Assembly: GCA_001543395.1 (NCBI GenBank)
Contig: LPNG01000010.1
Location: forward strand, 1 to 64,000
Reading direction: 5' to 3'
Length of the DNA: 64,000 nt
From: Candidatus Alcium sp. F082
GTDB taxonomy: Bacteria > Bacteroidota > Bacteroidia > Bacteroidales > F082
Position 1 is the stretch's first letter. The number at the start of each line of letters is the position of its first letter. The position numbers and the translations under genes were made by a program. Below are positions 22,182 to 51,755 of the stretch, piece by piece. The notes beneath the pieces were generated by a model. That model saw only the letters and a program-made list of their open reading frames with translations, was not told where the DNA came from and did no database searches.

Positions 22182-22185
22182 GACC

Positions 22186-22626: not shown

Positions 22627-22637
22627 GATTGTTCGAT

Positions 22638-23015
22638 TTAACGTTTCCAGTGTCTAACTCCGTAATTCTTGTCGTTCCACGAGGTCTGCCGACGCTCGAT
22701 GGTGATGACGTTGCTCTCCTCGTCGTGGAGGTTGGTCGTAAGGTACAGGGCCATACCGATGGCGGCTTGCACCTCAGCGGGGATTTCGCCTTCGGCCAGC
22801 TTGGTTACAGGCTTCACCGTGGCAGGTTTCAGCTCCTTCACCTCATTCTTCTTGGCGTCCTTTTTCTTGAAATAGGAAGCCACGCCGCTGAAGATCATCG
22901 AAAGGATGGCGAGGGCGAGGATGACAATGAGGAATCCCGCGATGGTGACGATCCAGCCTTTGGTGTAGACCCAGTCTTCGTGAGCCAACAGTAATGTAAA
23001 TTGTAACAGTTTCAT
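22638..23015 (-). CDS. OadG-like gamma (delta) subunit
   Basis: 125 residues with one membrane segment (about 20-45, GWIVTIAGFLIVILALAILS) near the N-terminus and a charged Lys-rich cytoplasmic tail with a conserved C-terminal block (VQAAIGMALYL, then WNDKNYGVRHWKR). OadG/MmdD proteins tether the soluble carboxyltransferase to the beta subunit. Between mmdA (18 bases) and the biotin carrier gene (11 bases). Confidence 0.8.
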   Translation of the reverse strand: MKLLQFTLLLAHEDWVYTKGWIVTIAGFLIVILALAILSMIFSGVASYFKKKDAKKNEVKELKPATVKPVTKLAEGEIPAEVQAAIGMALYLTTNLHDEESNVITIERRQTSWNDKNYGVRHWKR

Positions 23016-23033
23016 CGTTTCAAGGATTTACGG

Positions 23034-35175: not shown

Positions 35176-36432
35176 ATGAGAAGTCGCACCTTGACCATAT
35201 TATTCGCTCTTACAGCGATTCTCCTGTTTGCTTTCATGATACAACAGGCAACAGGGGTCTTTTCATTCAAGGAGTTGAGCGGCGTCACCCAAGAGCAAGC
35301 CAAACCGGAGCTGTCCTTCGATAATCTCCGTGGAGGCCGCTATCAGACCGAAGCCGAGAATTATCTCCAGCAACACTATGGCTTTCGCGAGCCACTGACA
35401 CGGCTATACAACCAAAGTCTTTGGACTGTTTTCCGTTACTCTAAGGTGGTCGAAGACCAACGTATCGCCATTACCGACGACAACTGGATTTTCGAGACGC
35501 CCACGATAGAAGAGTACTATCAAAGCCGCTCATATCATATCGCCAATGACGCTTCGGAAGTCGCCAATAAGTTTGAAGAAGAAGCCCAGAGACTGCGTCA
35601 AATCCAAGCAATCCTTGAACCTTATGGGACCCATGTCTTCGTCGCCCTACTTCCCGGCAAGGAACAAGTTTGTGCCGAACACATGCCCAAAAACACACAG
35701 TTTTTCGAAGAGAAAAAGATCACGGCTTTCGACTTCTACTCCAAGAGACTCAAGGAATTGGGCGTCAACCACATCAACTTCGGCGAGTGGTTCATCCAGC
35801 AGAAAGGTCATACCGACTATCCACTCTTCCCACAAACGGGTGCCCATTGGAGCATCTTGGCAGCCATGCATTCAACTGATAGTTTAATCCGTTACATGGA
35901 GCATCTGAGCGACTCCAACATGATCAACATCACAATAGGAGCTCCTTTCAAGAGGACGATGCGGCCCGATGCCGACGTTGAAAACCTGATGAACTTGATT
36001 TGGCCCCTTCGGAAAGCACCCAACTACCTGGCAGAGGCCAACACCGACCATGACACGACGGCATGGCGACCGCGGCTCCTCACCATCGGCGACTCTTTTT
36101 ATTGGAACATCGCGCATTTCACCCCCGTTGATGACATCTTCACCAAAGCGCCCTATTGGTATTATTTCAGCTCGGTTTATTTCGATGGACCTGAATCCAA
36201 AGTCATTGAGAAAGACCTGCTCAAAGAAGTGCTCATGTCCGACTTCGTGATGCTCTCCTACTCCACCGTCGGCCTATATCAGATGAGCAACACCTTCTCG
36301 TCACGGATACTGCATGAGATCTACTATGATGAAGACGAAACCGGGCCCGTCGATTTCGACAGCATCCCCAACAAACGCTCAAAGAAATTCCTACGCTATA
36401 TTGAACTGAAGCAACATAATGCATTAGAATAA
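35176..36432 (+). CDS. AlgX/AlgJ-like SGNH protein X1
   Basis: 418 residues. An N-terminal hydrophobic segment (about 6-27) anchors it or serves as signal; the rest is periplasmic. Conserved GFREPLTRLYNQ at 70-80. SGNH-type elements as in alginate O-acetylation proteins: His224 in TGAHW and Ser307 in GDSF; the position of the AlgX/AlgJ catalytic Asp two before His is Gly222. These proteins pass an acyl group from an MBOAT partner to an exported glycan. It lacks the tail motif of the other six and is the shortest. It is the first gene of the cluster, 4 bases before MBOAT I1. Confidence 0.82.
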   Translation: MRSRTLTILFALTAILLFAFMIQQATGVFSFKELSGVTQEQAKPELSFDNLRGGRYQTEAENYLQQHYGFREPLTRLYNQSLWTVFRYSKVVEDQRIAITDDNWIFETPTIEEYYQSRSYHIANDASEVANKFEEEAQRLRQIQAILEPYGTHVFVALLPGKEQVCAEHMPKNTQFFEEKKITAFDFYSKRLKELGVNHINFGEWFIQQKGHTDYPLFPQTGAHWSILAAMHSTDSLIRYMEHLSDSNMINITIGAPFKRTMRPDADVENLMNLIWPLRKAPNYLAEANTDHDTTAWRPRLLTIGDSFYWNIAHFTPVDDIFTKAPYWYYFSSVYFDGPESKVIEKDLLKEVLMSDFVMLSYSTVGLYQMSNTFSSRILHEIYYDEDETGPVDFDSIPNKRSKKFLRYIELKQHNALE

Positions 36433-36436
36433 GGAC

Positions 36437-37894
36437 ATGGTATTCAGCAGCAACATATTTCTACTCTATTTTATGCCGGTTTTCTTTCTGGTGTATTTCC
36501 TTATGCCACGAAAGACCCGCAACTATGTGCTGCTGCTTGGCTCACTTGTCTTCTATGCCTGGGGCGCGCCTGAGTTTATCATCCAGCTGGTGCTTTCCAT
36601 TATCGCCAACTTCTTCATTGTCAGGTGGATGTGTAAGACTGAGAAACCTGTGGCGAAGAAATGGCTTTGCGCCTTATCCGTCTTTATCAGCCTTGGGCTG
36701 CTGCTGTTTTACAAATACGGCAACTTCACCATGGAGAACCTAAATGCCCTTTTGGGCATAACAGGCCATGCCCCGCTTTCGTGGAGACGCATCATGTTGC
36801 CTATTGGCATTTCGTTCTTTACTTTCCAAAGCCTCACTTACACCTTGGACACCTACCGCGGTGTTAACAAGCCCTTGGAGAAGCTCAGCGATTACATGCT
36901 GTATATCACCATGTTTCCTCAGCTCATCGCCGGTCCCATCGTGCGCTACTGCGACGTGGCTGACCAGATTCGTCAGCGCGAGTCAACCCTGGTTGATCGC
37001 ATGCAGGGCTTCTACCGTTTCGTCATCGGATTGAGTAAGAAGATCCTCATTGCTGATGTCATCGGCTTGCGCGTCGACGCCATACTTGGCGCTGCCAGCC
37101 AAAACACGGCTCAGCTCTCCGAAATCGCCTCACGCATTGCCACACTCGACACGGGCACGGCTTGGCTCGTCGCCTTGGCCTATACCTTCCAGATCTACTT
37201 CGACTTTGCGGGCTACAGCGATATGGCCATCGGACTTGGACGCATCATGGGCTTCAAGTTCCCCGAGAACTTCGACAATCCCTACACCTCACGCTCCATC
37301 ACGGAGTTTTGGCGCCGTTGGCATAAAACCTTGGGGGCCTTCATCATGAACTACCTCTACATCCCATTGGGTGGCAACCGTAAAGGCACGGGGCGCATGT
37401 ACCTCAACCTCTGGCTATGCTTCCTGCTTTCGGGCTTGTGGCACGGTGCCGCTTGGAACTTCGTTGTATGGGGTGCCTTGCATGGTGTCTTCATCTGCGC
37501 CGACAAACTCTTCCTCGGAAAGGTGATGAAAAAAATCGGCACGGTGCCCTCTGTCATCCTCACTTTCCTCACGGTATGCATCATCTGGATGTTCTTCCGC
37601 ATCGAGGACATCGGCTTGGCCTTGATTTTCGTCACACGAATGTTTGCGTTCGATTTCAACGGGTTTGTCTTCCCCGGCAATGCCCATGTCTACACCACGC
37701 TCGTCGTCGCTGCCCTCTTCTCTTTCATCACACTGACAGGATGGGGCAAACGTCTGGAGCAGAAAACCTTTTACACCGACTTCAGCGAACGTCAACACAT
37801 CTGGGTTTGGATTGCGGCTGCCCTCCTGTTCATCTTCTGTGTTGCCGCTCTCAATGCCACCAGTTTCAGTCCGTTCATCTATTTCCGTTTCTGA
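36437..37894 (+). CDS. MBOAT O-acyltransferase I1 (AlgI-like)
   Basis: 485 residues with about 10-12 membrane segments. MBOAT hallmarks: FPQLIAGPIVRY, YRFVIGLSKKILIAD, FDFAGYSDMAIGLGRIMGF, FWRRWHKTLG and catalytic His336 in SGLWHGAAW. It takes an acyl group (usually from acetyl-CoA) in the cytoplasm and hands it across the inner membrane. The C-terminus ends SPFIYFRF, shared with the other three copies. It has an insertion of about 16 residues (AASQNTAQLSEIASRIATLD) also present in I2 but not in I3 or I4. Four bases after X1, 3 before X2. Confidence 0.93.
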   Translation: MVFSSNIFLLYFMPVFFLVYFLMPRKTRNYVLLLGSLVFYAWGAPEFIIQLVLSIIANFFIVRWMCKTEKPVAKKWLCALSVFISLGLLLFYKYGNFTMENLNALLGITGHAPLSWRRIMLPIGISFFTFQSLTYTLDTYRGVNKPLEKLSDYMLYITMFPQLIAGPIVRYCDVADQIRQRESTLVDRMQGFYRFVIGLSKKILIADVIGLRVDAILGAASQNTAQLSEIASRIATLDTGTAWLVALAYTFQIYFDFAGYSDMAIGLGRIMGFKFPENFDNPYTSRSITEFWRRWHKTLGAFIMNYLYIPLGGNRKGTGRMYLNLWLCFLLSGLWHGAAWNFVVWGALHGVFICADKLFLGKVMKKIGTVPSVILTFLTVCIIWMFFRIEDIGLALIFVTRMFAFDFNGFVFPGNAHVYTTLVVAALFSFITLTGWGKRLEQKTFYTDFSERQHIWVWIAAALLFIFCVAALNATSFSPFIYFRF

Positions 37895-37897
37895 GTC

Positions 37898-39619
37898 ATG
37901 CGAAAGAAGACGACATACGATATCATCCTGTTTGGCATTCTGATGGTGTTGCTTTTCCTTCCTTTGCTACAAGGACGCCTCTTCCGTATCCCATTGAAGC
38001 CCTTGAACGGCGTGACGGAAAAAACCGAAAAGCCCGAGTTCAGCCTTCAGTCCTACCGTTCAGGAGCGTATGCCAAACAAGAAGAAGCCTATCTGGGAGC
38101 GAATTTCGGTTTTCGTGAACCTATCATACGACTCTACAACCAATATCTTTGGGACTGTTACCGAAAGACTTATGCCCACGATGTGGTAGCCGGAAAGAAA
38201 GGCTGGCTCTATAACCCAGAGAGTGTCAACGATTACTACGGCACCGAGATGCTTCGTTGGCAATCATCGCCCGAAGCGGCCCGCCGCCAATATGACCTCA
38301 ACGTGAAATACATGAACTGGGTGCGCACCATACTCAAAGACAATGGTGTCGAACTCTTGGCTTTTGTCGCCCCCGAAAAAAGCTTCCTCTATCCCGAATA
38401 CCTCCCCGAACGCGAACACGACACCACGACCTTCAATGCCTGTGCCTATTTTTTGCACAAGTTCGATGAAAGCGGTTTCCCGTGCATTGACATGAACCAT
38501 TGGTTCCAACAGATGAAAGACACGGTTGACTATCCGCTGATTCCACAAACAGGCGCGCATTGGGTCTTCCCCGCCGTTTATGCCGCCGACTCCCTGTTCC
38601 GTTTCATGGGCGAGCTGAAAAGCATAACGTTGCCTCGACTGAGGATCGGCACGTTGCACGAAAGCGACAACCATGGTGCCGACAACGACTTAGAGCAACT
38701 GCTCAACTTGTCGCTGCCCATCCGAAAACGCCAGGGCTACAGCCCCACGGCCGAGGTCACAGTTGAACGTGACTCGACCTCAGTAAAACCCAAGGTATTG
38801 TTCATTGGCAACTCCTTCATGTGGGGCATCGCCAACCAGGTGCCCATGCAGGAAGTGTTTGACGATGTGGAGTTTTGGTACTACTACTCCACCGCTTATT
38901 ATGGTGACGGACTCTCGCAAACCGTCCCTGTCGCCAGTCTCAACCTAATGGAAAAACTGCTGGATTTCGACTATATCGTATGGTTCACCACTGGCAACCA
39001 ACTGAACAAAGGCACCATGAACTTTGCCCAGTCAGCCATTCTCACCCTCGGCATCGAAGACAGCATCCGAAGAGCTTATGTCAGACGAATTGCCGACACC
39101 CTGTCGTTGCCCTCCGACACCGCACGCCTTTACAAAGCCTATTCCCTTCTGCTCAACCACCCCGAATGGATCCCCGAGCTGAATGCCGACAGCTTGACAA
39201 CCCGAAACAGCGACATACCTTACGCCAAGGTCATCAAGGACATCAAGAAAGACAGTGTTTGGATGGCGGCCCTGAAAGACCAAGCCTTCTTGCGCACCGC
39301 TACGGTGAGCCGCATGCTTCATGCCGAAGTGGACAGAATCAAGGAAGGCAAGCCACTCTATAAAGACCAGACGGACGAGATTTTGTTCTCACAGCAATGC
39401 CAACAAGAAGTTGCAGAATTGATGGAGCAGATGCGTGGCCGCGAGGAGACCATGAAAAAAGTAAAAGAAAAAGCCGAGAAGAATAACAAAACCCTTGAAG
39501 AAGCTCTGGAAGACGATGCCCGTTGGCTCATACGGAAGAAATATGGCCTCGACCGCTGCCGACTCATCGACGACCCTGACGCTAAGATTCCACTGCCCAA
39601 AACAAACCCTAATAAATAA
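37898..39619 (+). CDS. AlgX/AlgJ-like SGNH protein X2, long type
   Basis: 573 residues. Signal anchor at about 8-26, conserved GFREPIIRLYNQYLW (71-85), SGNH core with His221 (TGAHW) and Ser306 in GNSF; Gly219 replaces the AlgX catalytic Asp, and the usual GDS is GNS. After about residue 410 comes a helical, highly charged extension with two copies of the shared tail motif: IKKDSVWMAALKDQ (about 450) and KEKAEKNNKTLEEALEDDARWL (near 545; conserved E-A-x-x-D-A-R-W). The gap of 37 bases to I2 holds an internal promoter. Confidence 0.8.
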   Translation: MRKKTTYDIILFGILMVLLFLPLLQGRLFRIPLKPLNGVTEKTEKPEFSLQSYRSGAYAKQEEAYLGANFGFREPIIRLYNQYLWDCYRKTYAHDVVAGKKGWLYNPESVNDYYGTEMLRWQSSPEAARRQYDLNVKYMNWVRTILKDNGVELLAFVAPEKSFLYPEYLPEREHDTTTFNACAYFLHKFDESGFPCIDMNHWFQQMKDTVDYPLIPQTGAHWVFPAVYAADSLFRFMGELKSITLPRLRIGTLHESDNHGADNDLEQLLNLSLPIRKRQGYSPTAEVTVERDSTSVKPKVLFIGNSFMWGIANQVPMQEVFDDVEFWYYYSTAYYGDGLSQTVPVASLNLMEKLLDFDYIVWFTTGNQLNKGTMNFAQSAILTLGIEDSIRRAYVRRIADTLSLPSDTARLYKAYSLLLNHPEWIPELNADSLTTRNSDIPYAKVIKDIKKDSVWMAALKDQAFLRTATVSRMLHAEVDRIKEGKPLYKDQTDEILFSQQCQQEVAELMEQMRGREETMKKVKEKAEKNNKTLEEALEDDARWLIRKKYGLDRCRLIDDPDAKIPLPKTNPNK

Positions 39620-39624
39620 TTTCC

Positions 39625-39632
39625 TATTTTTG
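39625..39632 (+). promoter_or_regulatory. Internal -7 element (TATTTTTG)
   Basis: TAnnTTTG match 24 bases before I2, inside CCTATTTTTGCAA, which also occurs in the cluster promoter at 35141. It suggests that the X-I unit was copied with its promoter. Confidence 0.45.
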
Positions 39633-39656
39633 CAAACTCAATATTATAAATAAGGT

Positions 39657-41126
39657 ATGGTATTCAGCAGTAACGTATTCCTACTCTATTTTATGCCGAT
39701 TTTCTTCTTGGTGTACTTCATACTACCGAAGAAAATCCGCAACTATTTCCTGCTGTTGGCATCGCTCCTCTTCTATGCCTATGGCGCGCCTGAGTTTATC
39801 ATACAACTAATCGTCAGCACCATAGCCAACTTCTATTTGGTACGCTGGATGAACAAGGTGGAAAAACCAGGCCTGAAAAAACTCCTCTGCGGCATCTCCA
39901 TAGCCATCAGTATCGGACTGCTGTTCTACTTCAAGTACGGCAACTTCACAATGAACAACATCAACTCGGTGTTGGGTTGGTTTGGGGGCAAGCCGCTGCA
40001 ATGGACCAAGATCTTGTTGCCTATCGGCATCTCTTTCTTCTCGTTCCAAAGCGTCACCTACACCTTGGATACCTACCGCGGCGTAAACAAACCTATGGAG
40101 CGTTTGAGCGACTACATGCTCTATATCGTCATGTTCCCACAACTCATCGCCGGTCCCATCGTGCGCTACTGCGACATCGCCGACCAGATCCGCAACCGCG
40201 AGTCACTCTATACCGACCGACTGCATGGCTTCTATCGCTTTGTGATAGGCCTTGCCAAGAAGGTCTTGATTGCCGACGTCATCGGTTTCCAAGTCGACAA
40301 AGTGCTGGGGCCTTCCAACTACGACGTGCTGACTTCAGCACAACTGGCCGACATTGCCAACAAGATTGCCACCATCGACAGCACCACCGCCTGGATTGCC
40401 ATCTTCGCCTTCACCTTCCAAATCTACTTCGATTTTGCCGGTTACTCCGACATGGCCATTGGTTTGGGTCGTATGATGGGATTCAAGTTCCCCGAGAACT
40501 TCGACAACCCTTACGTCTCCACTACCATCTCAGAGTTTTGGCGTCGTTGGCACCAGACCTTCAGCGTGTTCATCAAAAACTACCTCTACTTCCCCTTGGG
40601 CGGTAGCCGTGTGAAGACTGAGGCACGCAAATACTTCAACCTCTGGTTCTGTTTCCTCATCAGCGGTTTGTGGCACGGCGCCGCGTGGAACTTCGTGATA
40701 TATGGTGCCTTGCAAGGTATCTTCATCTGCGCCGATAAGCTGTTCTTGAAAAAATTCAACGAGCGCTTGGGGCGCATCCCTTCGGTGTTCTTCACCTTCC
40801 TCATCATCGTGTTGACCAGATGCTTCTTCCGTATTGAGCGCATCGACCTGTCGTGGCTCTTCATCAAACGCCTTTTCGCCTTCGACTTCGCTCCTTTCCA
40901 CTTCGGCGACAACCCGCACTTGTATGTGACCATGCTTGTGGCCGCCTTCTTCTCCTTCTTCACCCTCACCAAGTTCGGCCTCAAGGTGCAAGACAAGGTC
41001 TACTTTACTGAGTACAACAAAAAGCAGCATATCATCGCGTTCATCATCAGCATACTGGCCTTCGTCTTCTGCCTGGGCGCTTTGAATGCCAGCGGTTTCA
41101 GCCCATTTATCTATTTCAGATTCTGA
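39657..41126 (+). CDS. MBOAT O-acyltransferase I2 (AlgI-like)
   Basis: 489 residues, closest to I1 (same loop insertion, same VNKPMERLSDYMLYI block). Catalytic His340 in SGLWHGAAW; ends SGFSPFIYFRF. It carries SRVKTEARKYF where I1, I3 and I4 have GNR-K/R-GKGR, a difference next to the catalytic region that may affect substrate. The stop overlaps the start of X3 by one base (TGATG). Confidence 0.93.
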   Translation: MVFSSNVFLLYFMPIFFLVYFILPKKIRNYFLLLASLLFYAYGAPEFIIQLIVSTIANFYLVRWMNKVEKPGLKKLLCGISIAISIGLLFYFKYGNFTMNNINSVLGWFGGKPLQWTKILLPIGISFFSFQSVTYTLDTYRGVNKPMERLSDYMLYIVMFPQLIAGPIVRYCDIADQIRNRESLYTDRLHGFYRFVIGLAKKVLIADVIGFQVDKVLGPSNYDVLTSAQLADIANKIATIDSTTAWIAIFAFTFQIYFDFAGYSDMAIGLGRMMGFKFPENFDNPYVSTTISEFWRRWHQTFSVFIKNYLYFPLGGSRVKTEARKYFNLWFCFLISGLWHGAAWNFVIYGALQGIFICADKLFLKKFNERLGRIPSVFFTFLIIVLTRCFFRIERIDLSWLFIKRLFAFDFAPFHFGDNPHLYVTMLVAAFFSFFTLTKFGLKVQDKVYFTEYNKKQHIIAFIISILAFVFCLGALNASGFSPFIYFRF

Positions 41127-42466
41127 TGCAGAAACCCAGCCGTCATATCATCCAGTTTGTATGCATCATGGCCGTGCTTACTGCCATTGCGCTGCAAGGC
41201 TTCACCCATGTGGTGAAGATGAAGCCCTTGGAAGGTGTGGTGGCCAAAGAAAAAGTCGTCGAGCTGAACTTCAACAACTATCTCGACGGTAGCTATCAGG
41301 CTTACCTCGCCGAACACGCCAAGCGCAACACAGGCTTTCGCGAGTTCTTCATCCGCAACTACAACCAAGTTTGCTATTCTATCTTCGGCATATTCAACAA
41401 TGACAATATCGTTGAGGGCAAAAACGGCGAGCTATTCACCAAAATGTATATCGATGACTTGACGGGCAAGCGCATCAAGGACAATTATGGCAGCATCGAC
41501 AGCGTCAAGGCCATAGCACGCGAGAACACCAAACTCACCTTGCGGCTGATGGACACCTTGAAGCAGCACGGCACCGACTTCCTCTTCATCTTCGCCCCTT
41601 CGAAGACGGCAGTCTATCCCGAATACCTCCCCGATAGCTACCGCCAATACTGCTCCGACTCCCTGCTCATCGACTATTACATTGCGTTGTTCAAGGAATA
41701 CGACATCCCCCATATCGATTTCCACAACTATTTCAAGCAGATCAAGGAAAGCTTCCCCTACCCGCTCTACGCCAAATACGGAACGCATTGGGCCTATTCC
41801 ACCATCCCGATGGTGTCGGACTCCATTCTTCGTAAGCTGGAAGCCGTAACGGGCAAGAGCCTGCCTTCGATTGAAATCACCGACATCAACATCACCACCG
41901 ACTATTTTGGTCAGGATCGCGAACTTGAAGGCCAGTTCAATTTGCTGTTTCCCATCGCAAAACCAGCCATCCCCAACCCTAAGTTCATCTTAACCGACAC
42001 CGTTGGCAAGGTCAAGCCCAACCTCGTTGCCATAGCCGACAGCTATTTCGTTGCCTTCGAAAAAACTAGTTTCCTTCATGCCTTCAACACCTGGAGCTAT
42101 TGGAAATATAATGAGGACATCGTCTCAAACGAGCCCAAATACAACTGGAAAAAAGTCAAGTATTTCACTGACACCTACCAAATCCTTGAAGACGCCGACA
42201 TCGTGATGGCGGTCTTCACCTCGCCCATGCTCTACGACTACATGTTCGACTTTCCTGAGACGGCTTTCAACTTGTATTCCCATGGCCAGCTTTGTGAGGA
42301 AGACAAAATTGAGTTGATGATGGAGACCATAAGAGACAATGCCCCTTGGTACGAAGCCGTGGAAAAACAAGCCAAAGAATATGGCCTCACCGTGGAAGAG
42401 AACCTCCGCCGCAACGCTATTTACGTCATCCGTTCGAAAAAAGAAAAAGAAAAAAACAACAAATAA
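41126..42466 (+). CDS. AlgX/AlgJ-like SGNH protein X3, short type
   Basis: 446 residues. Membrane anchor about 8-28 (FVCIMAVLTAIALQGF), conserved NTGFREFFIRNYNQ (68-81), His221 in GTHW with Gly219 where AlgX has Asp, and Ser306 in ADSY. The C-terminus (about 395-440) carries one tail motif: NAPWYEAVEKQAKEYG, then TVEENLRRNAIYVI. X4 is its nearest relative. The end abuts the start of I3 with no gap. Confidence 0.82.
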   Translation: MQKPSRHIIQFVCIMAVLTAIALQGFTHVVKMKPLEGVVAKEKVVELNFNNYLDGSYQAYLAEHAKRNTGFREFFIRNYNQVCYSIFGIFNNDNIVEGKNGELFTKMYIDDLTGKRIKDNYGSIDSVKAIARENTKLTLRLMDTLKQHGTDFLFIFAPSKTAVYPEYLPDSYRQYCSDSLLIDYYIALFKEYDIPHIDFHNYFKQIKESFPYPLYAKYGTHWAYSTIPMVSDSILRKLEAVTGKSLPSIEITDINITTDYFGQDRELEGQFNLLFPIAKPAIPNPKFILTDTVGKVKPNLVAIADSYFVAFEKTSFLHAFNTWSYWKYNEDIVSNEPKYNWKKVKYFTDTYQILEDADIVMAVFTSPMLYDYMFDFPETAFNLYSHGQLCEEDKIELMMETIRDNAPWYEAVEKQAKEYGLTVEENLRRNAIYVIRSKKEKEKNNK

Positions 42467-43882
42467 ATGGTATTCAGTAGTAACATATTCCTCTTCTTCT
42501 TCCTGCCTATCTTTCTGATAGCGTATTTCGTCACGCCCCAGAAGTTCAGGAACTATACATTATTGCTGTTCTCCCTCATCTTCTATGCCTATGGCGCTCC
42601 CGATTTTGTTTTCCTCCTCGTCGGGGAATGCATCATCAACTATTTCATCGTGCGAGGCATGGCCAAGACAGAGAAGACCAGCACGAAGAAATGGCTCTGC
42701 GCCCTCTCCGTCATCATGGCCTTGGGGTTGCTGCTGTATTTCAAGTATGCCAACTTCTTCATGGAGAACCTCAACGCCATTCTCGGCTGGATGCATCACG
42801 AGCCTGTCAGCTGGATGAAGGTGGCCTTGCCCATTGGTATCTCGTTCTTCACTTTCCAAAGCATCACCTACACACTCGATGTGTACCGCGGCACCACACC
42901 GCCGAGCCAAAAACTGACCGACTACGTGCTGTATATCATGATGTTCCCGCAACTCATCGCAGGCCCCATCGTCAACTATAACAGCGTTGCCGCGCAGTTG
43001 GTGGAGCGCACCAGCACCATGGAAGACCGCGTGGTGGGTTTCTATCGCTTCATCATCGGTTTAGGCAAGAAAGTACTCATTGCCAACACCTTGGCTGCTT
43101 ATGCCGACCAAGTTTTCGCCATGAACTACGCCGACCTGGCCACCAGCACGGCTTGGATAGGCATTTTGTCGTATACCTTCCAGATCTACTTCGACTTCTC
43201 TGGCTATAGCGATATGGCCATTGGTCTCGGCAAGATGATGGGCTTTAAGTTCCCCGAAAACTTCAACGACCCGTACACCAGCCGCAGCGTCACTGAGTTC
43301 TGGAAACGCTGGCATATGACGCTTGGTAATTTCATCATGAATTACCTCTACATCCCCCTCGGTGGCAACCGCAAGGGCAAAGGACGCATGTACCTCAACC
43401 TATGGCTCTGCTTCCTCCTCTCGGGCTTGTGGCATGGTGCCAGCTGGACTTTCGTCCTCTGGGGAGCCTTCCATGGCTTATTCATCTGTGCCGACAAACT
43501 CTTCTTGAAGGACCTGCTCAAGAAAGCGGGCAAGTGGCCAGCGGTCATTCTCACCTTCTTTGTCGTCAACATGGGCTGGGTGCTCTTCCGCGTCGACACC
43601 GCCGCCGATGCAGGTGGCTTCTACCAAGCCCTGTTCGCCTTCAAGGGCGGTCTGACCCAACCCGCCGACCTCTTGTTCTGGTTCACCTTTGGTCTGGCAG
43701 TGGTCTTCTCCTTCCTCACCCTTTTCAAAGGAGGACAACGGCTGCAAGACACCATCTTCGCCGACCATTATTCCAAAGGTCTCTCCTGGACCATGTTCGC
43801 CATCTGCCTCGTATTGCTTATCCTCTCCGCCGGCTCGCTCTGCGTCTCCGACTTCAACCCCTTCATCTATTTCAGATTCTAA
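42467..43882 (+). CDS. MBOAT O-acyltransferase I3 (AlgI-like)
   Basis: 471 residues, MVFSSNIFLF start, about 10-12 membrane segments, FPQLIAGPIVNYNS, FDFSGYSDMAIGLGKMMGF, His323 in SGLWHGASW; ends DFNPFIYFRF. It lacks the I1/I2 loop insertion and is closer to I4. It lies between the close pair X3 and X4, which may be its partners. Confidence 0.93.
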   Translation: MVFSSNIFLFFFLPIFLIAYFVTPQKFRNYTLLLFSLIFYAYGAPDFVFLLVGECIINYFIVRGMAKTEKTSTKKWLCALSVIMALGLLLYFKYANFFMENLNAILGWMHHEPVSWMKVALPIGISFFTFQSITYTLDVYRGTTPPSQKLTDYVLYIMMFPQLIAGPIVNYNSVAAQLVERTSTMEDRVVGFYRFIIGLGKKVLIANTLAAYADQVFAMNYADLATSTAWIGILSYTFQIYFDFSGYSDMAIGLGKMMGFKFPENFNDPYTSRSVTEFWKRWHMTLGNFIMNYLYIPLGGNRKGKGRMYLNLWLCFLLSGLWHGASWTFVLWGAFHGLFICADKLFLKDLLKKAGKWPAVILTFFVVNMGWVLFRVDTAADAGGFYQALFAFKGGLTQPADLLFWFTFGLAVVFSFLTLFKGGQRLQDTIFADHYSKGLSWTMFAICLVLLILSAGSLCVSDFNPFIYFRF

Positions 43883-43885
43883 GCC

Positions 43886-45220
43886 ATGAACAAGAAGCCA
43901 CATTTCATCATACAATTTGTCTGCATCTCCGCAGTGTTGGCCGCCATCCTACTGCAGAGCTTCACGCATATTGTCAAGATGAATCCGTTGAAAGGCTTCG
44001 ACAAAGAAGAACAGCCCCCTGTCGAGTTGTCCTTCAAGACTTATTACGACGGTAGTTACCAGGACTATCTGACCGAACACGCCAAGCGAAACACGGGCTT
44101 CCGTGAGTTCTTCATCCGCAACTACAACCAAGTGGCTTATTCATGCTTCAACAAAATCACCAACAAGAACATTGTGAAAGGGCACGACCAAGAGCTCTAT
44201 CTGAAGATGTACCTCAACGAAGCCACGGGGGTGACCTTCAAGCAACACTTTGCCGATGTAGATGAAGCCAAAGCCGAGGCCCGAAAGAATGTAGAGGAAA
44301 CCCTACGGCTGATTGACACGCTGCACCAACACGGCAAAGCCTTCCTTTTCGTCTTTGCACCCACCAAACCTGCGGTTTATCCCGACAAGTTGCCGTCCTA
44401 TTACAAAAACCATCTCTTCGACTTTTCCTTAGAAGAGTACTATATCCAACTCTTCAAGGAGAACCATATCCCGCATATCGACTTCTACCACTATTTTCAG
44501 GATATCAGGGACACTTTCCCCTATCCTTTGTATCCGCGCACGGGTACCCATTGGTCGGAGGCAACCATCCCTTATGTGGCCGATTCCGTCTTGAAGAAAC
44601 TGGCTGAAATCACAGGCTACAAACTGCCTTCGGTCCACTACATCGACGACAACCTCAGCACCGACTATTCGGTGCAAGACGGCGAGTTGGAAGCTTCGAT
44701 GAACCTGCTGTTCCCGTTGAACAAGCCCGCCATCCCGCGGCCCGTGTTCGAGCTGACCGACACCGTGGGGACCGACAAGCCCAACCTGCTTGTAGTGGCC
44801 GACAGCTACTTCACCCAACTTAGAAACTCGACCTTCATCGAAGCGTTTGATGCTTGGGAGTTTTGGGTATATAACCGCGATGTGCAATCGTCGAATCCGC
44901 AGCACCAATGGAAACAACTTGACCAACTGCTTGATGCCGAAAAAGTGTTGGACAATGCCGACATCGTAATGGCTGTTTTCACGGCTCCGATGTACTACAC
45001 ATATATGTTCGGCTTCCCACAAACTGCCCAAAACCTGTTCCAAAATGGAGAGATAAGCGAGGGGGCCAAACTTCAGGCTGTCATACAAATGATCAAGGAC
45101 AACGAGGATTGGATGAAAGCTGTTGAAAAACAAGCCGAAGAACGCGGATTGACCGTTGAGCAGAACTTGCGCCGCAATGCCATTTATGTGCTTGAAAAGA
45201 AAAAACAAAAAGGACAATGA
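43886..45220 (+). CDS. AlgX/AlgJ-like SGNH protein X4, short type
   Basis: 444 residues, very close to X3: anchor FVCISAVLAAILLQSF, NTGFREFFIRNYNQVAY, His222 in GTHW (Gly220 in place of Asp) and Ser307 in ADSY. The tail motif NEDWMKAVEKQAEERG, TVEQNLRRNAIYVL lies at about 396-440. Followed after 4 bases by X5. The pair X3/X4 flanks I3. Confidence 0.82.
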   Translation: MNKKPHFIIQFVCISAVLAAILLQSFTHIVKMNPLKGFDKEEQPPVELSFKTYYDGSYQDYLTEHAKRNTGFREFFIRNYNQVAYSCFNKITNKNIVKGHDQELYLKMYLNEATGVTFKQHFADVDEAKAEARKNVEETLRLIDTLHQHGKAFLFVFAPTKPAVYPDKLPSYYKNHLFDFSLEEYYIQLFKENHIPHIDFYHYFQDIRDTFPYPLYPRTGTHWSEATIPYVADSVLKKLAEITGYKLPSVHYIDDNLSTDYSVQDGELEASMNLLFPLNKPAIPRPVFELTDTVGTDKPNLLVVADSYFTQLRNSTFIEAFDAWEFWVYNRDVQSSNPQHQWKQLDQLLDAEKVLDNADIVMAVFTAPMYYTYMFGFPQTAQNLFQNGEISEGAKLQAVIQMIKDNEDWMKAVEKQAEERGLTVEQNLRRNAIYVLEKKKQKGQ

Positions 45221-45224
45221 CGCC

Positions 45225-47258
45225 ATGAAAAAGCACAGAAACAACATAGTATACGTCATCCTGTTTTGCCTTCTGATGGTCTTCCTGTTCTCGTTTATGA
45301 TACAGGAACAGTTCGGGTTGTTTGAATTTCGGAAACTGAGTGGATACGAGGAGCCTACCCCAAAGCCTGTCTTCAGTCTAAAGGACTACAAGAACGGCGA
45401 TTTCCAATATGACTTGGAGCAATATGTCAGCGAAAACCTTGGTTTTCGGGAGCCCATCATCAGGATGTACAACCAGTATGTCTATGATTTCTATAAGAAA
45501 ACCTATAACCAAGAAGTAGCGATTGAAAAAGACGGTTGGCTCTACCATTCCGATGGCATCAAACAGTATTACGGATGGATGAATGAAAAATTCCACCTTA
45601 CTGACGAAGAATTCCAGCAGCAATTGGATGCCCAAATCCGAAGTCTATATAAAATCAATGAAATCCTTAAGGAGTATGGCGTCGGTTTCCAATGCTTTAC
45701 CCTGCCGACCAAGACCTACATCTTTCCTCAGCATTTGGGCAACCATCGTTTTGCGGACACGGCATTTAAGGCAAACGAACACTTCGAAAAGAGCCTCTCC
45801 GCTCTCGGTGTGCCCAACATCAACATGAACTCGTGGTTCCAAAAAGTACAGGACACCCTGCCCTTTCCATTGTTCCCACAAAAGGGAAGCCATTGGGCCG
45901 CTGGCGCCCCCTTGGCTGTCGACACCATGCTTCGACTGATGGAAAGCACCAATGGAAAGAAATACCCTGACATTACATTGGGTGAGCCTTATCCAGTTTA
46001 CGATGTCCCCAATGACGACAAAGACCTCGAATGTCTACTCAACTTGTGGCGTCCACAGAAAAACGACCCGGTTTATGAGTATCCCGTCAGCCTAAAATTG
46101 GACAACGAGACTCAATTCCCCTCCGTCCTTTTTGTCGGCACCTCTTTCTATTGGTATATGAAACGTCGGGTACCGTTCGATGCTCTATTCACCTCCAGAG
46201 ATTTTTATTTCTACTGCTCCCTCTTCTATTCCGAAAAGGAAACCGTAGTAACTTCAAACAAGGATCAGGTGGATTTGCTGTGGGAAATACTTACGCACGA
46301 CAATGTGGTGTACTTCCTCAATGGACCACAGTTATACATGGATGGCTTTTTCTTTGCCAGCAGGGCGCTGCGCGCTTTGTGTATCAGCGACAGCAGATAC
46401 CAGGAAAAACTTCAAGAGGTCGCAGACAGCTTAATGACTGCCAACCACGCCGATGCAACTGAAAGGGAAAAATACCTGTATAAAGCCAAGTTGGCTTTAG
46501 AGAAAGACCCTGAACTATTCGAAGAACTGCGTGGCGAGGCTGTTCCTACGGCCCGAAACCCAAGGATCGAGAAGATATTGGTCGAACGCGACATCCTCAA
46601 TAACGCTCGCTGGAAGGCTTTGTTGGAAGCCAAGGCAGACAATGATTCACTGCCTTTTAAGCCCGTGCTGTCACTTGAGGCAAGCAACATCCTCACTGGT
46701 GTTCCCTCGCTGACTGAGAACATGTTCCTGACCTCATATCATTTCTTTGACGTAGAGGTGAAAACACTTATCGACAGTTTGCGGCATTCGCCTGTTTATA
46801 TCGACTCCATACTCTCCGCTTCAGCCGGCTCGTTTAATGACAATGTTTTGTTTGAAAGTGCTTGCCAGATCGTCAGACAACGGATAGAACAAGGTGGTTA
46901 TAACGACAACACATCGGCCATTAGGGCTTTTACCATCCAACAGTTTTTGGCAAGCTTGAACAACAAGACTTCGTTGGATAATATGGCACAAAAGGCTCAA
47001 GATCAGCATAAATCACTGAAACGAGCCATAGAAGATGATGCACTTTGGGTTTGGTCTCACCGAGAGAAACCTATAGCGTTCGACGAGGCGCAAATCGGTG
47101 CTCTCTGGGAACAATACCTCATCGAACATCGCATCAGAAACTACCCTGAAAGCGTGAACAGGGTCCGACAAAAGGCCGCCGACAAGGGGAAGCCTTTCCT
47201 GTTCGCGTTGATGGACGACGTGATATACAATTACAACCAAGCAAACAATAATCGATAA
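45225..47258 (+). CDS. AlgX/AlgJ-like SGNH protein X5, long type
   Basis: 677 residues from MKKHRNN at 45225 (an open frame from 45156 overlaps X4 and is not preferred). Anchor about 9-27, NLGFREPIIRMYNQYVY (71-87), His223 in GSHW (Gly221), Ser307 in GTSF: the Asp of GDS is Thr. From about residue 420 a long helical extension carries up to four divergent tail-motif copies (clearest KSLKRAIEDDALWVW and RNYPESVNRVRQKAADKG near the end). It is the longest of the seven and directly precedes I4 by 11 bases. Confidence 0.78.
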   Translation: MKKHRNNIVYVILFCLLMVFLFSFMIQEQFGLFEFRKLSGYEEPTPKPVFSLKDYKNGDFQYDLEQYVSENLGFREPIIRMYNQYVYDFYKKTYNQEVAIEKDGWLYHSDGIKQYYGWMNEKFHLTDEEFQQQLDAQIRSLYKINEILKEYGVGFQCFTLPTKTYIFPQHLGNHRFADTAFKANEHFEKSLSALGVPNINMNSWFQKVQDTLPFPLFPQKGSHWAAGAPLAVDTMLRLMESTNGKKYPDITLGEPYPVYDVPNDDKDLECLLNLWRPQKNDPVYEYPVSLKLDNETQFPSVLFVGTSFYWYMKRRVPFDALFTSRDFYFYCSLFYSEKETVVTSNKDQVDLLWEILTHDNVVYFLNGPQLYMDGFFFASRALRALCISDSRYQEKLQEVADSLMTANHADATEREKYLYKAKLALEKDPELFEELRGEAVPTARNPRIEKILVERDILNNARWKALLEAKADNDSLPFKPVLSLEASNILTGVPSLTENMFLTSYHFFDVEVKTLIDSLRHSPVYIDSILSASAGSFNDNVLFESACQIVRQRIEQGGYNDNTSAIRAFTIQQFLASLNNKTSLDNMAQKAQDQHKSLKRAIEDDALWVWSHREKPIAFDEAQIGALWEQYLIEHRIRNYPESVNRVRQKAADKGKPFLFALMDDVIYNYNQANNNR

Positions 47259-47269
47259 CACAACTCACC

Positions 47270-48697
47270 ATGGTCTTCAGTAGCAGCATATTCCTCTTCT
47301 GGTTCCTGCCCGTCTTCCTCGCGGTGTATTTCATCGTGCCACGGCGCTTGAAGAACCCTGTCGCGCTGCTGGCCAGCTTGGTGTTCTATGGCTTTGGCTC
47401 GCCAAAATTCCTGCTGGTGCTGTTGCTGTCCATCACCATCGACTTCTTTTTGGTGCGGCAGATTGACAAGAGCAATGACACAAAACGCCGGAAACTGTTT
47501 CTCGTCCTTTCTGTCATCCTCAACATCGGGCTGCTGGCCTATTTCAAATACGCCAACTTCTTCGTCGACAATTTCAATGCCATCCTTAGCGCTTTCGGCA
47601 CGCCACCCGTTCGTTGGACCAAAGTGGTGCTGCCCATCGGCATCTCGTTCTTCACCTTCCAGAAGATGAGCTACAGCATCGATGTCTATCGCAAGACCTC
47701 AGCCCCGCTGAAGAGCATCGCCGATTATGCCCTGTTCATCATGCTCTTCCCACAGCTCATCGCAGGTCCCATCGTGCGCTACAACGAGATTGCCGAACAA
47801 ATCACCGACCGCCGCGCCAACGAGACCGCCGACAACCGTGTTTTAGGTTTTTATCGCTTCGTCATAGGCTTATCAAAAAAGATGTTGATTGCCAATATCT
47901 TGGCCGAATATGTCGACCAAGTCTTTGCCTTGCCCACTGCTGAAATTGGCCTCTCCACCGCCTGGCTTGGCATTTTGGCCTATACCTTCCAAATCTATTT
48001 CGACTTCTCGGGCTACAGCGACATGTCCATCGGCATAGGACGGATGATAGGCTTCAAATTCCCTGAAAACTTCAACAACCCCTATATCAGCCAAAGCGTG
48101 TCGGAGTTCTGGAAACGCTGGCACATCACCCTCGGAAGCTGGATGATGGACTACCTCTATATCCCGCTCGGAGGCAATCGTCGTGGTAAGGGCCGCACCT
48201 ATCTCAACCTGTGGATTGTGTTCTTCCTCTCAGGCTTGTGGCACGGTGCCGCTTGGACCTTCGTGGCTTGGGGTGCCTTCCACGGTATCTTCATCGTCAT
48301 CGACAAGATGTTTTGGTTGAAGGCAAGCAAACGCATCGGCAAGATACCGCGCGTACTCATCACCTTTGTCATCGTGATGATTGGCTGGGTGATGTTCCGC
48401 GCCGACACCATAGGCTATGCTGTGCAGTATGTTGGGGCCATGTTCGGCGCCAATGGCTGCACACCCGCCTTGTTTGTCAACAGCCAGTTCGTCTTCACCC
48501 TCATCGTCGCGGTCTTCTTCGCTTTCTTCGGTCTCACCAAAGTGGGCGACAAGGCCTTGGACTTCTTCTTCAACCGCAAAGCCTACAACACCGTGCAAGT
48601 CGTATGGGTCGGCTTACTGATGGTTGTGTTACTCATACTCTCGGCTTCGTTCATCCTCAAAGGCAGTTTCAACCCCTTCATTTACTTTAGGTTCTGA
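47270..48697 (+). CDS. MBOAT O-acyltransferase I4 (AlgI-like)
   Basis: 475 residues; MVFSSSIFLF start, FPQLIAGPIVRYNEIAEQI, FDFSGYSDMSIGIGRMIGF, His325 in SGLWHGAAW; ends KGSFNPFIYFRF. Most divergent of the four (YGFGSPKF for YAYGAPEF, KMSYSIDVY for TYTLDTY). The stop overlaps the start of X6 by one base (TGATG). Confidence 0.93.
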   Translation: MVFSSSIFLFWFLPVFLAVYFIVPRRLKNPVALLASLVFYGFGSPKFLLVLLLSITIDFFLVRQIDKSNDTKRRKLFLVLSVILNIGLLAYFKYANFFVDNFNAILSAFGTPPVRWTKVVLPIGISFFTFQKMSYSIDVYRKTSAPLKSIADYALFIMLFPQLIAGPIVRYNEIAEQITDRRANETADNRVLGFYRFVIGLSKKMLIANILAEYVDQVFALPTAEIGLSTAWLGILAYTFQIYFDFSGYSDMSIGIGRMIGFKFPENFNNPYISQSVSEFWKRWHITLGSWMMDYLYIPLGGNRRGKGRTYLNLWIVFFLSGLWHGAAWTFVAWGAFHGIFIVIDKMFWLKASKRIGKIPRVLITFVIVMIGWVMFRADTIGYAVQYVGAMFGANGCTPALFVNSQFVFTLIVAVFFAFFGLTKVGDKALDFFFNRKAYNTVQVVWVGLLMVVLLILSASFILKGSFNPFIYFRF

Positions 48698-50046
48698 TGA
48701 AAACGTTCAAGAAAATATGGTTCGTCATCTTACTCGCGCTGCTCTTCCTGCCGATGTTGCAGACGTTTTTCCATTTCGTGAACGAAAAGCCCTTGGATGG
48801 CGCCTTCGTGGAAGCGAAAAAGCCTGTCATCACGCCGAAGACCTTGTTCAACGAGACCGCCCAAGACTCACTGATGACTTGGTGCACCGAGCAGACTGGC
48901 TTCCGCAAGCCCATGATCCGTTTGAACAACCAACTGCTCTATTCCGCCTTCGGCAAAGTGTCGGCCATAGGTCCCGTGAAAGGCAACGACGATTACACCT
49001 TCATTGAAGAGTCGTACATCATCAGTTACACCGGCGAGACCTATTTGGGAAATGAGGCCATCGAAAAAAACACAAGGCAAATCAAACTCATCCAAGACAT
49101 GCTCCGCACCAAGGGCATCACTCTTTTGCCTGTCTTTGTACTAGGCAAGGCCTCCTATTACCCCGAACTGATTCCTGAAAAATACATCGTCAAACGCCAC
49201 GAAACCAACAACTACCAAGAGTATCTGAAAGCCTTTGACGAGCAAGGTGTAGAGATGATCGACTTCAACCGCTGGTTGTGCGAACGAAAAGGCACAGAAG
49301 CGCATCCGATCTACTGCAACCTGAGCGCCCACTGGACCGTCTATGCTGCCTCGCTGGCCATGGACTCGCTAGTGCATTACATGGAAAACAAGACACAGCA
49401 GGAACAAGCCCATTTCCATATTGAAGGCTTCGACACCACCTATCTGATGAACCAGGACGACGATCTCTATCGTATGATGAACCTGTTGTTGCCTATGAAG
49501 CACAACACCATCGACCAACCCAAATTCGGTTTCACCGAAGGCTACAAGCCTAGGGTATTGGCCATCTCCGACTCTTACTGGTGGACAGTTTACGCTTGGA
49601 ATGTCGCCCTCCCGCAAAACCTCTTCAGACCGGGCGACTTCTGGTTCTACAACAAAACCATCTATCCCGAGCGCACACCCATACAAAACGTGGAATCTGT
49701 CGACTACAAACAGGAAATCGAAGACCAAGAGTTTGTACTCCTGGTCTGCACCGAAGCCACCAACCACCTATGGCCTTATGGCTTCATCGAACGCTATTTG
49801 AGCGGCTACGACAACGTGTTCCGTTACAAAGAGCCCGAACAATACGATGCCGCCGACAGTCTTTACTTCGTCCACCGCAACGCGGAAATCGAAAAGAACA
49901 TCCAACGCATCAAAGATACACCTGAATGGATGGAGAGCATCACCCGACAGGCCGACGAGAAAGGCATTACTGTTGAGCAGTCGCTGTGGGACAATGCCGA
50001 ATACACCTACCGCATGGACATCGAACCCCAAGGCTTTGTGCGATGA
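48697..50046 (+). CDS. AlgX/AlgJ-like SGNH protein X6, short type
   Basis: 449 residues. Anchor about 6-26, QTGFRKPMIRLNNQLLY (66-82, with K for E in GFRE), His212 in SAHW (Ser210 for Asp), Ser293 in SDSY. One tail motif: DTPEWMESITRQADEKG, TVEQSLWDNAEYTY (about 396-440). The most divergent X protein. Its stop overlaps the start of X7 in ATGA. Confidence 0.8.
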   Translation: MKTFKKIWFVILLALLFLPMLQTFFHFVNEKPLDGAFVEAKKPVITPKTLFNETAQDSLMTWCTEQTGFRKPMIRLNNQLLYSAFGKVSAIGPVKGNDDYTFIEESYIISYTGETYLGNEAIEKNTRQIKLIQDMLRTKGITLLPVFVLGKASYYPELIPEKYIVKRHETNNYQEYLKAFDEQGVEMIDFNRWLCERKGTEAHPIYCNLSAHWTVYAASLAMDSLVHYMENKTQQEQAHFHIEGFDTTYLMNQDDDLYRMMNLLLPMKHNTIDQPKFGFTEGYKPRVLAISDSYWWTVYAWNVALPQNLFRPGDFWFYNKTIYPERTPIQNVESVDYKQEIEDQEFVLLVCTEATNHLWPYGFIERYLSGYDNVFRYKEPEQYDAADSLYFVHRNAEIEKNIQRIKDTPEWMESITRQADEKGITVEQSLWDNAEYTYRMDIEPQGFVR

Positions 50047-51755
50047 AAAAGGGCGATACCATAGTATACAGCATCCTTTTCGGCATCTTGATGGTGTTTT
50101 TGTTCGCCTTTATGGCACAAAAACAATTTCATCTATTCAAGATGAAGCCCTTGGCAGGTTTCATCAAGAACACCGAAGTGCCAGAACTGACCATGGATAG
50201 CTACCGTTCGGGGGAATATCAGGCCAAGCTTGAGAGTCGTCTCAGCGAGACCTTCGGTTTTCGCGAACCCGTCATCAGAGCCTATAACCAATATCTATGG
50301 TGGTGCTATCGCAAGACCTACTGCCATTTCATCGCCCCAGGTAAAGAAGGCTATTTGTTCTACACAGAAGCTGTTGATGACTATTATGGCCTTGAGTCCA
50401 TTAAGATGTATCGTAACTACGACCGAGCGAGGGAATGGGCAAGGAAAAACGTGCTGATGATGGAAAAGCTCAGACATGTCTTGAAAGACTACGGCGTTGA
50501 GTTCCTCTGCTTTATGGGTCCCAACAAAACCCAACTCTATCCCGAATACCTACCTTATCACGAACCTGCACCTACCGACGCTATCAATACAGCCGACTAT
50601 TACGACTCGCTGATGAACGTCATCGGTTTCCCCCACATCGAGATGACACGATGGTATAAGGCGATGAAAGACACTTGCTCTTTCCAGTTGATTCCCAAAC
50701 GCGACACCCATTGGCGCTATGCTGCCGCCTATGGATTCGACAGCCTCTTCTGCTATATGGACCGCCTCAACGATTTCGGCATTCCCGACATCCATGTCAA
50801 TGGCATGATTAAGCTCGACACCAACTATCGCGAAAGCGATGAAAAAAACCTCAACCTCATCTTCCCCATCCCTAACGACGCCCCAAAATATTGGCCCGAT
50901 GTCACCGTCGACTGTGGCGAAGGCTGTCGCAAACCCAAGGTGTTGTTTGTCGGTGATTCCTTCATCTGGGATTTGGAGACTTACCTGCCCTGGAAGGAAA
51001 TCATGGACGATGTGGAGATTTGGTTCTACAACGAATCAGCGTTTGTGGGCTTTGAGAAAGAGTACCATCCCGTTACTGAAATCAACCGGCTGCGGTCCAT
51101 CCTCAACGCCGACTATGTGGTGTGGTATTCCACAGGCAGCCAGTGGTGCCGTTGCTCCTACGACTTCGTAGAAGACGCCCTCCTACGCCTCTGCGTGACC
51201 GACAGCCTCTTCGACGCCCAAATCCCATGGGTAATGGACAGCCTGAGCAATGACAGCAGCTTCAACAAGACCCATTACCAATGGCGCCATTTGGAGCACC
51301 GCGAAGACAGCTTGAGAAAATACGCCATCAAAGCGCTGAGAGACAACCCCTTGTTAATCCCAGGCCTCGACGGCCCCGACATGCCTGTCATCCGTAATAC
51401 GGAAGCCATAGCTTTGGCGCTGCAAGGCAATGCCATCGCTAACGACAAAGAGTGGCGACAAGCCATCAAGATGGCTGCTTTGAAGTCCCAGCGCAGCTTC
51501 GACAAAATGCTTGACGAAGAAGCACATAACGTGCTCGCCGGACGCAGCCTATTACGAGACAGCATCATGATCGACACCGCCACGGTAATTCAGTTTGAAG
51601 TTGAAAAACTCATGAAGCTGTGGAGAAACGATGCCGAAAGCATAAAGTACCTAGAAAACAAAGCGCAAGAACGAGGCTTGTCTTTTGAAGAAATGCTGGA
51701 AGCCGATGCCCGCTGGGTCGTCAACGAACGCCTGAAAAACGGGGAATTGTTTTGA
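50043..51755 (+). CDS. AlgX/AlgJ-like SGNH protein X7, long type
   Basis: 570 residues from MKKGDTI at 50043 (ATGA overlap with X6; a frame from 49986 is open but overlaps X6). Anchor about 7-27, TFGFREPVIRAYNQYLW (70-86). It is the only X protein with the full AlgX-type signature: Asp221-Thr-His223-Trp and Ser306 in GDSF. Two tail motifs: NDKEWRQAIKMAALKSQ (about 460) and NKAQERGLSFEEMLEADARW (about 535-560). It closes the cluster 16 bases before the end of the convergent GH16 gene; no terminator hairpin is seen there. Confidence 0.82.
   Translation: MKKGDTIVYSILFGILMVFLFAFMAQKQFHLFKMKPLAGFIKNTEVPELTMDSYRSGEYQAKLESRLSETFGFREPVIRAYNQYLWWCYRKTYCHFIAPGKEGYLFYTEAVDDYYGLESIKMYRNYDRAREWARKNVLMMEKLRHVLKDYGVEFLCFMGPNKTQLYPEYLPYHEPAPTDAINTADYYDSLMNVIGFPHIEMTRWYKAMKDTCSFQLIPKRDTHWRYAAAYGFDSLFCYMDRLNDFGIPDIHVNGMIKLDTNYRESDEKNLNLIFPIPNDAPKYWPDVTVDCGEGCRKPKVLFVGDSFIWDLETYLPWKEIMDDVEIWFYNESAFVGFEKEYHPVTEINRLRSILNADYVVWYSTGSQWCRCSYDFVEDALLRLCVTDSLFDAQIPWVMDSLSNDSSFNKTHYQWRHLEHREDSLRKYAIKALRDNPLLIPGLDGPDMPVIRNTEAIALALQGNAIANDKEWRQAIKMAALKSQRSFDKMLDEEAHNVLAGRSLLRDSIMIDTATVIQFEVEKLMKLWRNDAESIKYLENKAQERGLSFEEMLEADARWVVNERLKNGELF

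Follow-up and report, generated by a model that had tools for sequence, protein, structure and literature searches.

What would a gut bacterium do with four membrane-bound O-acyltransferases (MBOATs) and seven potential partner proteins encoded side by side? Such a locus lies in the window analyzed here, the 64,000-nucleotide stretch of Candidatus Alcium sp. F082 that comprises bases 1-64000 of a contig from a 2.36 Mb assembly (153 contigs, 72% complete). Eleven close-packed genes on the + strand at 35176-51755 encode four MBOATs (I1-I4) and seven AlgX/AlgJ-like SGNH proteins (X1-X7). A preliminary description made from the sequence had reported this gene count, the order X-I-X-I-X-I-X-X-I-X-X and a spacing from a 4-base overlap up to 37-base gaps, all of which agree with the coordinates of the open reading frames (ORFs). 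It had also proposed that several acyltransferase modules work side by side, an idea supported by the protein families, an acyl-shuttle motif, the predicted fold of X2, non-random gene pairing and variable gene content in relatives. Sequence comparison indicates that the locus is a real, old and modular expansion of an MBOAT-SGNH acyl relay.

The four I proteins, I1 (36437-37894, 485 residues), I2 (39657-41126, 489 residues), I3 (42467-43882, 471 residues) and I4 (47270-48697, 475 residues), match the Pfam MBOAT family PF03062 at 103.2, 90.5, 119.5 and 124.5 bits, respectively, all above the cut-off of 27 bits. A crude scan found 6-8 hydrophobic segments in each. The motifs named in the preliminary description, LWHGAAW or LWHGASW and a PFIYFRF end, are present in all four (SPFIYFRF in I1 and I2, NPFIYFRF in I3 and I4), and we take the His of the former to be the catalytic MBOAT His. 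The C-terminal FIYFRF agrees with the FXYXXF acyl-shuttle hexapeptide. According to the available text on PatA, the Tyr of this hexapeptide is auto-acetylated and such an acetylated peptide donates to the SGNH partner PatB; its authors expect alginate and cellulose systems to use the same Tyr shuttle (PMC12148441). Of the 66 I proteins in a genus-centered set, 64 have an FXYXXF C-terminus, and the other two are truncated by the end of a contig or stretch; among more distant I proteins, 71 of 73 end in this way. Two more MBOATs are encoded outside the array in this genome.

The X proteins are X1 (35176-36432, 418 residues, type t1), X2 (37898-39619, 573 residues, type t2), X3 (41126-42466, 446 residues) and X4 (43886-45220, 444 residues), both of type B, X5 (45225-47258, 677 residues, with a long C-terminal extension), X6 (48697-50046, 449 residues, type t6) and X7 (50043-51755, 570 residues, type t7). 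The starts of X5 and X7 were set at ATG 45225 and ATG 50043, both inside longer mechanical ORFs. X1 to X6 score 38.5, 33.7, 36, 40.1, 38.4 and 51.5 bits against PF16822 (ALGX), above its cut-off of 26.5 bits, and X7 falls just below it on its own (25.7 bits) but reaches 27.3 bits with its neighbors in frame. Thus the family search suggested in the preliminary description placed all four I proteins and six of the seven X proteins above threshold. No further PF16822 matches were found in the 72%-complete assembly. In each X a single strongly hydrophobic segment lies at the N-terminus, with nothing similar further on, and each has a GFRE motif (GFRK in X6), as had been described. A Ser motif and an xxHW motif are present in all seven, the His motif always preceding the Ser motif. 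Among solved structures, the X profile matched AlgJ (E 3e-13), PatB1 (3e-10) and AlgX (7e-6). X2, the one X modeled, gave a confident structure (predicted local distance difference test score, pLDDT, 93.5; predicted template modeling score 0.88), and all 10 of its Foldseek matches at E<=1e-3 were AlgJ, AlgX or PatB1. X2 is therefore predicted to have a circularly permuted SGNH fold, the opposite of the outcome that the preliminary description had named as fatal to its proposal.

The SGNH core claimed for all seven X proteins was upheld for the Ser and His motifs and for the X2 fold, but not for the triad Asp, which is found in X7 alone (an intact DxHW, reading DTHW, compared with GAHW in X2). 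The triad of AlgJ is D190-x-H192 plus S288, and acetylation in vivo is lost when the Asp is changed (available text of PMC4148444). Judged by this Asp-x-His plus Ser triad, the sequences of X1 to X6 are AlgX-related but fall outside AlgX/AlgJ. The lack of the triad Asp had been missed in the preliminary description, as had a neighboring gene for a GH16-like protein that shares a helical motif with the X proteins.

Gene types and pairing in relatives

The array is not a product of chance, because the same gene types recur in relatives. X matches were found in 18 of 23 genomes of the same genus, with variable content. Among genomes of the order that belong to other families, 4 of 16 gave X matches, which in one case were to the C-terminal motif alone. 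Most of the nearest loci with a name come from Bacteroidales metagenome-assembled genomes of ruminant guts (goat, roe deer, yak, water buffalo). The preliminary description had recommended phylogenies of both families and a comparison of synteny. In a quick maximum-likelihood tree, I2, I3 and I4 each fell in supported clades common to other species, and two further types, I5 and I6, were found in other genomes; X types are likewise common to several species. The supported clade that contains I1 is small and lies among other rows of the I1 type. As a whole, the I1-type rows were not supported as a clade in this tree, as I2 nests among them at supports of 89-90. The synteny comparison showed the same gene types arrayed in relatives with variable content.

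Adjacent genes are paired by type. Type t6 lies directly 3' of I4 in all seven I4 genes mapped, t1 directly 5' of I1 in 13 of 14 cases, type B directly 3' of I3 in 10 of 11, and t7 adjoins I2 in 9 of 18. None of 2000 shuffles attained the observed mutual information between I and X types, upstream or downstream, in a test that does not model kinship. This test used 23 maps hand-typed from 28 gene-order lines, with two stretches of one G009 contig joined and with inverted genes, I5/I6, cut genes and some outlying X genes set aside. At more distant loci, X is directly 3' of I in 59 of 72 cases counted from maps. Culturable Bacteroidota such as Brumimicrobium aurantiacum and Taibaiella soli carry one I-X unit each. 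A strict X-I-X module as a rule was rejected because the types shuffle. The array is modular in that relatives hold variable module sets with preferred I-X pairing.

In comparisons of the window with five relatives, identity is 83-96% for I proteins and 46-74% for X proteins (X5 is outside this comparison). Where synonymous sites are unsaturated, the ratio of nonsynonymous to synonymous substitution rates (dN/dS) is ~0.03-0.11 for I and 0.07-0.22 for X. By these measures the X proteins diverge faster than the MBOATs; since dS is also higher in X than in I, this is faster divergence and not proof of positive selection. The difference suggests that the SGNH partner faces the variable side of the system. 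A recent exchange between two species has left its mark on the sequences of G002 and G023. These are 99-100% identical over ~1.2 kb, a stretch that is essentially a single B-type X gene, and identity is 91-97% onward over I3 and the next X, within a locus that is elsewhere mostly 70-93% identical.

A second kind of array was seen in G020 (L128:2227-12012), with four more distant MBOATs ending in FIYFQF or FVYFQF, each followed by a partner of 302-334 residues; the four partners had no Pfam match at E<=0.01. Pairs of this kind also occur in L129-L131, and those of L130 and L131 lie near a gene whose product has a C-terminus like that of the window's GatE-like protein.

A shared helical motif and a GH16-like neighbor

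Near the C-terminus of five X proteins we found clear copies of a helical motif of ~37 residues, here called R, with the consensus NEIRNDPEWMESIKEKAEENGISLEEQLRLDAEWVLN. X2 and X7 carry two copies and X3, X4 and X6 one each; with the A4 model, X5 has a weak match (E 0.036) and X1 none. Within this genome R is confined to X genes and the GH16-like gene at 51772-53742; its profile was built from this locus, which therefore matches by construction. In the genus-centered set, which has 134 X entries for 119 names since some loci occur more than once, R was found in 117 of the entries. In a class-wide draw, R was present in 23 of 118 other genomes; the 30 distinct ORFs that carry it comprise 12 X, 7 GH16-like, 5 PMT-like GT-C proteins, 1 Wzy_C ligase-like, 3 SGNH/GDSL-like, 1 multi-pass and 1 small lipoprotein-like. 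In this tally L164 is called PMT-like by its likeness to L151 and L165; L152 and L169 (SGNH-like) and L150 (lipoprotein-like) were labeled by eye, and L173 (GDSL) and L175 on the minus strand (EpsG) rest on Pfam matches below cut-off. Matches across 40 relatives were classified in part. Searches of reversed sequences gave 0 matches in 3557 ORFs, and a phylum-wide draw gave R in 0 of 295 other genomes. The motif is patchily distributed, and the class-wide and phylum-wide draws differ in composition.

In X and other non-GH carriers, the median distance between the last R copy and the C-terminus is 8-9 residues. No Pfam family above cut-off covers the motif in the carriers scanned (DUF2433 matches below cut-off in L171), and the literature was not searched for it. 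The families recognized among the carriers are, we presume, membrane-bound or extracytoplasmic and mostly glycan-related. Because R is common to X proteins, GH16-like proteins, PMT-type glycosyltransferases and an O-antigen-ligase-like protein, we infer that it may be a docking or glycan-binding module. A more specific and tentative idea is that R is an undescribed periplasmic docking module that would gather SGNH acyltransferases, GH16-type proteins, PMT-type glycosyltransferases and an O-antigen-ligase-like protein of Bacteroidota into a common glycan-processing complex, with the array as species-variable acyl modules plugged into it.

Two other loci with R-bearing genes were seen. In G069 (L178:6451-15352), two membrane proteins with R and a GH16-like R protein are encoded within 9 kb, and further PMT_2-like genes, one of them below cut-off, lie in the surroundings, possibly a glycan-assembly locus. 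A partial membrane protein encoded at L084:3-776, 1.4 kb upstream of an I-X unit, has R at its C-terminus; a HAD phosphatase-like gene and, below cut-off, a UbiA-like gene lie nearby.

The GH16-like gene (51772-53742, minus strand) is the next gene downstream of the array and convergent with it. It encodes 656 residues with one R motif at residues ~154-197 and EIDIE at residue 479. The protein scores below the cut-off of the Pfam GH16 family (18.6 against 22 bits, E 0.0014) and has no NCBIfam match and no sequence match in the PDB; with its C-terminal part cut off, no Pfam match was obtained. Two of five homologues scanned also match GH16 below cut-off, and the ExDxE motif is kept in all 11 full homologues aligned. 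A low-confidence model (pLDDT 57.7), used for fold class only, gave Foldseek matches that were GH16-type in 50 of the 50 listed (the best 50 of 91 at E<=1e-3), some of them GH16 members by our own assumption. The model and the ExDxE motif together place the protein in the GH16 fold class. Of 18 same-genus genomes, 8 have GH16-like genes in the stretches retrieved around the cluster, and at four distant loci (L073, L074, L062, which is partial, and L186) such a gene lies immediately upstream of an I-X unit. The GH16-like protein is possibly part of the same system as the array. A CotH-kinase protein with a secretion-system C-terminal sorting domain is encoded beside it (53748-55571); in L192, too, a CotH gene stands next to a gene with R, which may be chance.

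A proposed acyl relay and its alternatives

With a probability of about 0.72, we read the locus as a set of parallel MBOAT-SGNH acyl relays that decorate a periplasmic or surface glycan. Based on homology with PatA/PatB, DltB/X/D and AlgI/J/X, each I protein would accept an acyl group from a donor in the cytoplasm, probably acyl-CoA, and attach it at the periplasmic face to the Tyr of the FIYFRF peptide at its own C-terminus. The Tyr would hand the acyl group to the Ser of one or two membrane-anchored X partners, which would transfer it to a glycan beyond the inner membrane. The units are likely X1-I1-X2, X3-I3-X4 and X5-I4-X6, and I2 may be served by the t7-type X7 or another neighboring X. 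It is plausible that the modules act at different positions or with different acyl groups, as had been suggested in the preliminary description. Given that species differ in the relays that they hold, the acylation pattern of their surface glycan probably differs as well. The R motif on most X proteins of the genus and on the GH16-like neighbor may gather the enzymes on a common partner or glycan. Elsewhere in the window, genes at 20439-24593 encode the beta subunit of a sodium-pumping decarboxylase and a carboxyltransferase, which are possibly propionyl-CoA related; a link to the acyl donor would be speculative.

Several observations weigh against this reading. The pairing is loose, and G023 has t6 and t5b without I4, which indicates that units also decay or were never whole. 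Of 74 more distant X proteins, only 27 carry R. GH16-like and X genes do not significantly co-occur in 118 other genomes of the class, where X is present in 7 of 16 genomes with a GH16-like gene and in 30 of 102 without (p=0.26), so that the link between the two depends on their being neighbors at some loci and on the motif that they share. The triad Asp is missing in six of the seven X proteins of the array, all of which keep Ser and His, and Gly replaces the Ser in 6 of 119 X proteins, all of type B. Among 28 window proteins scanned with Pfam, a part of the window's genes, no glycan synthase was recognized in or beside the array. Finally, a Pfam scan of 95 neighbors at 25 distant loci (94 of 108 picked, plus one) gave no common glycan cluster beside I-X units: Por_Secre_tail was found in 6, glycosyltransferase family 2 in 2, and other families in at most 2 each, among the best 25 of 155 families.

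This scattered neighborhood bears on the nature of the target, which might instead be peptidoglycan, lipid A/core or glycoprotein glycans, modified by a stand-alone system like PatAB rather than one tied to an exported polysaccharide. We regard this alternative as possible but the less probable choice. It would account for the lack of a shared glycan-synthesis cluster, and the occurrence of R on PMT_2 GT-C proteins, one of them ArnT-like although far below cut-off (121 against 567 bits), would suit it too. The solved GH16-type members among the listed matches of the GH16-like protein, however, cut beta-glucans, galactans or O-glycans and not peptidoglycan, substrates that we in part assume from general knowledge, and up to four relays with fast-diverging X proteins would better suit a variable glycan. 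The precedent for such a stand-alone pair is PatAB, a characterized MBOAT-SGNH system (available text of PMC12148441).

The catalytic residues raise a second alternative, which we consider unlikely: only some X proteins, those of the X7 type with DxHW, would be acyltransferases, and the GxHW or SxHW proteins would be non-catalytic glycan-binding or scaffold subunits, leaving fewer active relays. In 119 X proteins, mostly from the same genus as the source, the triad Asp is present in 13, all of type t7 (X7 among them), and in none of the more distant partners listed, nearly all of which read GxH where they have residues there. The AlgJ variant D193A loses alginate acetylation (available text of PMC4148444). 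The six type-B proteins with Gly for Ser are probable non-catalytic partners. On the other hand, the His is retained in 119 of 119, the Ser in 113, a Lys in 118, and an Asp ten residues past the His in 119 of 119; this Asp is also invariant in the 48-row alignment A3, with few exceptions farther out. At many distant Bacteroidota loci the X adjoining an I reads GxHW, and Ser-His dyads have been described for CE2 esterases (available text of PMC9487903). As the triad Asp is missing while Ser, His and the later Asp are kept, either a Ser-His dyad works in the Asp-less X proteins, or the later Asp takes over, or many of them are non-catalytic.

That the genes are redundant tandem paralogues which all carry out the same reaction, for dosage, is more doubtful still. 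The tandem arrangement and the 52-66% identity of I2-I4 to I1 would fit, but X2-X7 are only 21-31% identical to X1, and the clades of I2, I3, I4 and the two further types shared between species argue that the I types are old and were kept separately. An assembly duplication or chimera, which the preliminary description had considered and which a 72%-complete genome in 153 contigs might invite, can be dismissed, since the copies are this strongly diverged and arrays of the same types are found in separate relatives.

An array of old, typed and exchangeable modules with up to four MBOATs per locus offers a natural test of whether the shuttle MBOAT or the SGNH partner determines the acyl group, the sugar and the position. 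The absence of the triad Asp from Bacteroidota partners raises a question of enzyme mechanism, and the R motif offers a sequence handle for finding further components of the envelope-glycan pathways of Bacteroidota, which are important in the ecology of gut and rumen.

Comparison with known systems

To our knowledge, characterized MBOAT-SGNH systems have one MBOAT with one to three partners, and the literature searched, which covers few subscription journals, held no description of arrays such as this one. Among its near counterparts is PatA/PatB, in which an MBOAT with a C-terminal FXYXXF-type shuttle peptide works with an SGNH partner (available text of PMC12148441); there a single pair is found, compared with four MBOATs and seven SGNH-type partners here. 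By profile and fold, the array X partners are nearest to AlgJ, PatB1 and AlgX. With AlgI/AlgJ/AlgX/AlgF the array shares an MBOAT and AlgJ/AlgX-type circularly permuted SGNH proteins, and often two X genes around one I, as AlgI has AlgJ and AlgX. It differs from the alginate system in the missing triad Asp of six of the seven X proteins, and the helical R extension stands where AlgX has a carbohydrate-binding module (available text of PMC4148444). Nor was an alginate synthase or export gene recognized among the 28 window proteins scanned, and nothing observed points to alginate itself. The array I profile matches DltB structures (E 3e-28), but I1-I3, the three scanned, score 151.5-153.8 bits against a DltB cut-off of 375 bits; unlike in DltB/DltD, the shuttle peptide is fused to the MBOAT, and no DltA or DltC was recognized among the proteins scanned. 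WssFGHI and CcsHI are MBOAT-SGNH systems named beside PatAB (available text of PMC12148441), and clostridial cellulose acetylation has a cognate glycoside hydrolase (available text of PMC7710045). The present locus differs from WssFGHI and CcsHI in that no cellulose synthase was recognized near the array, in its GH16-like protein and in the expansion of the array itself.

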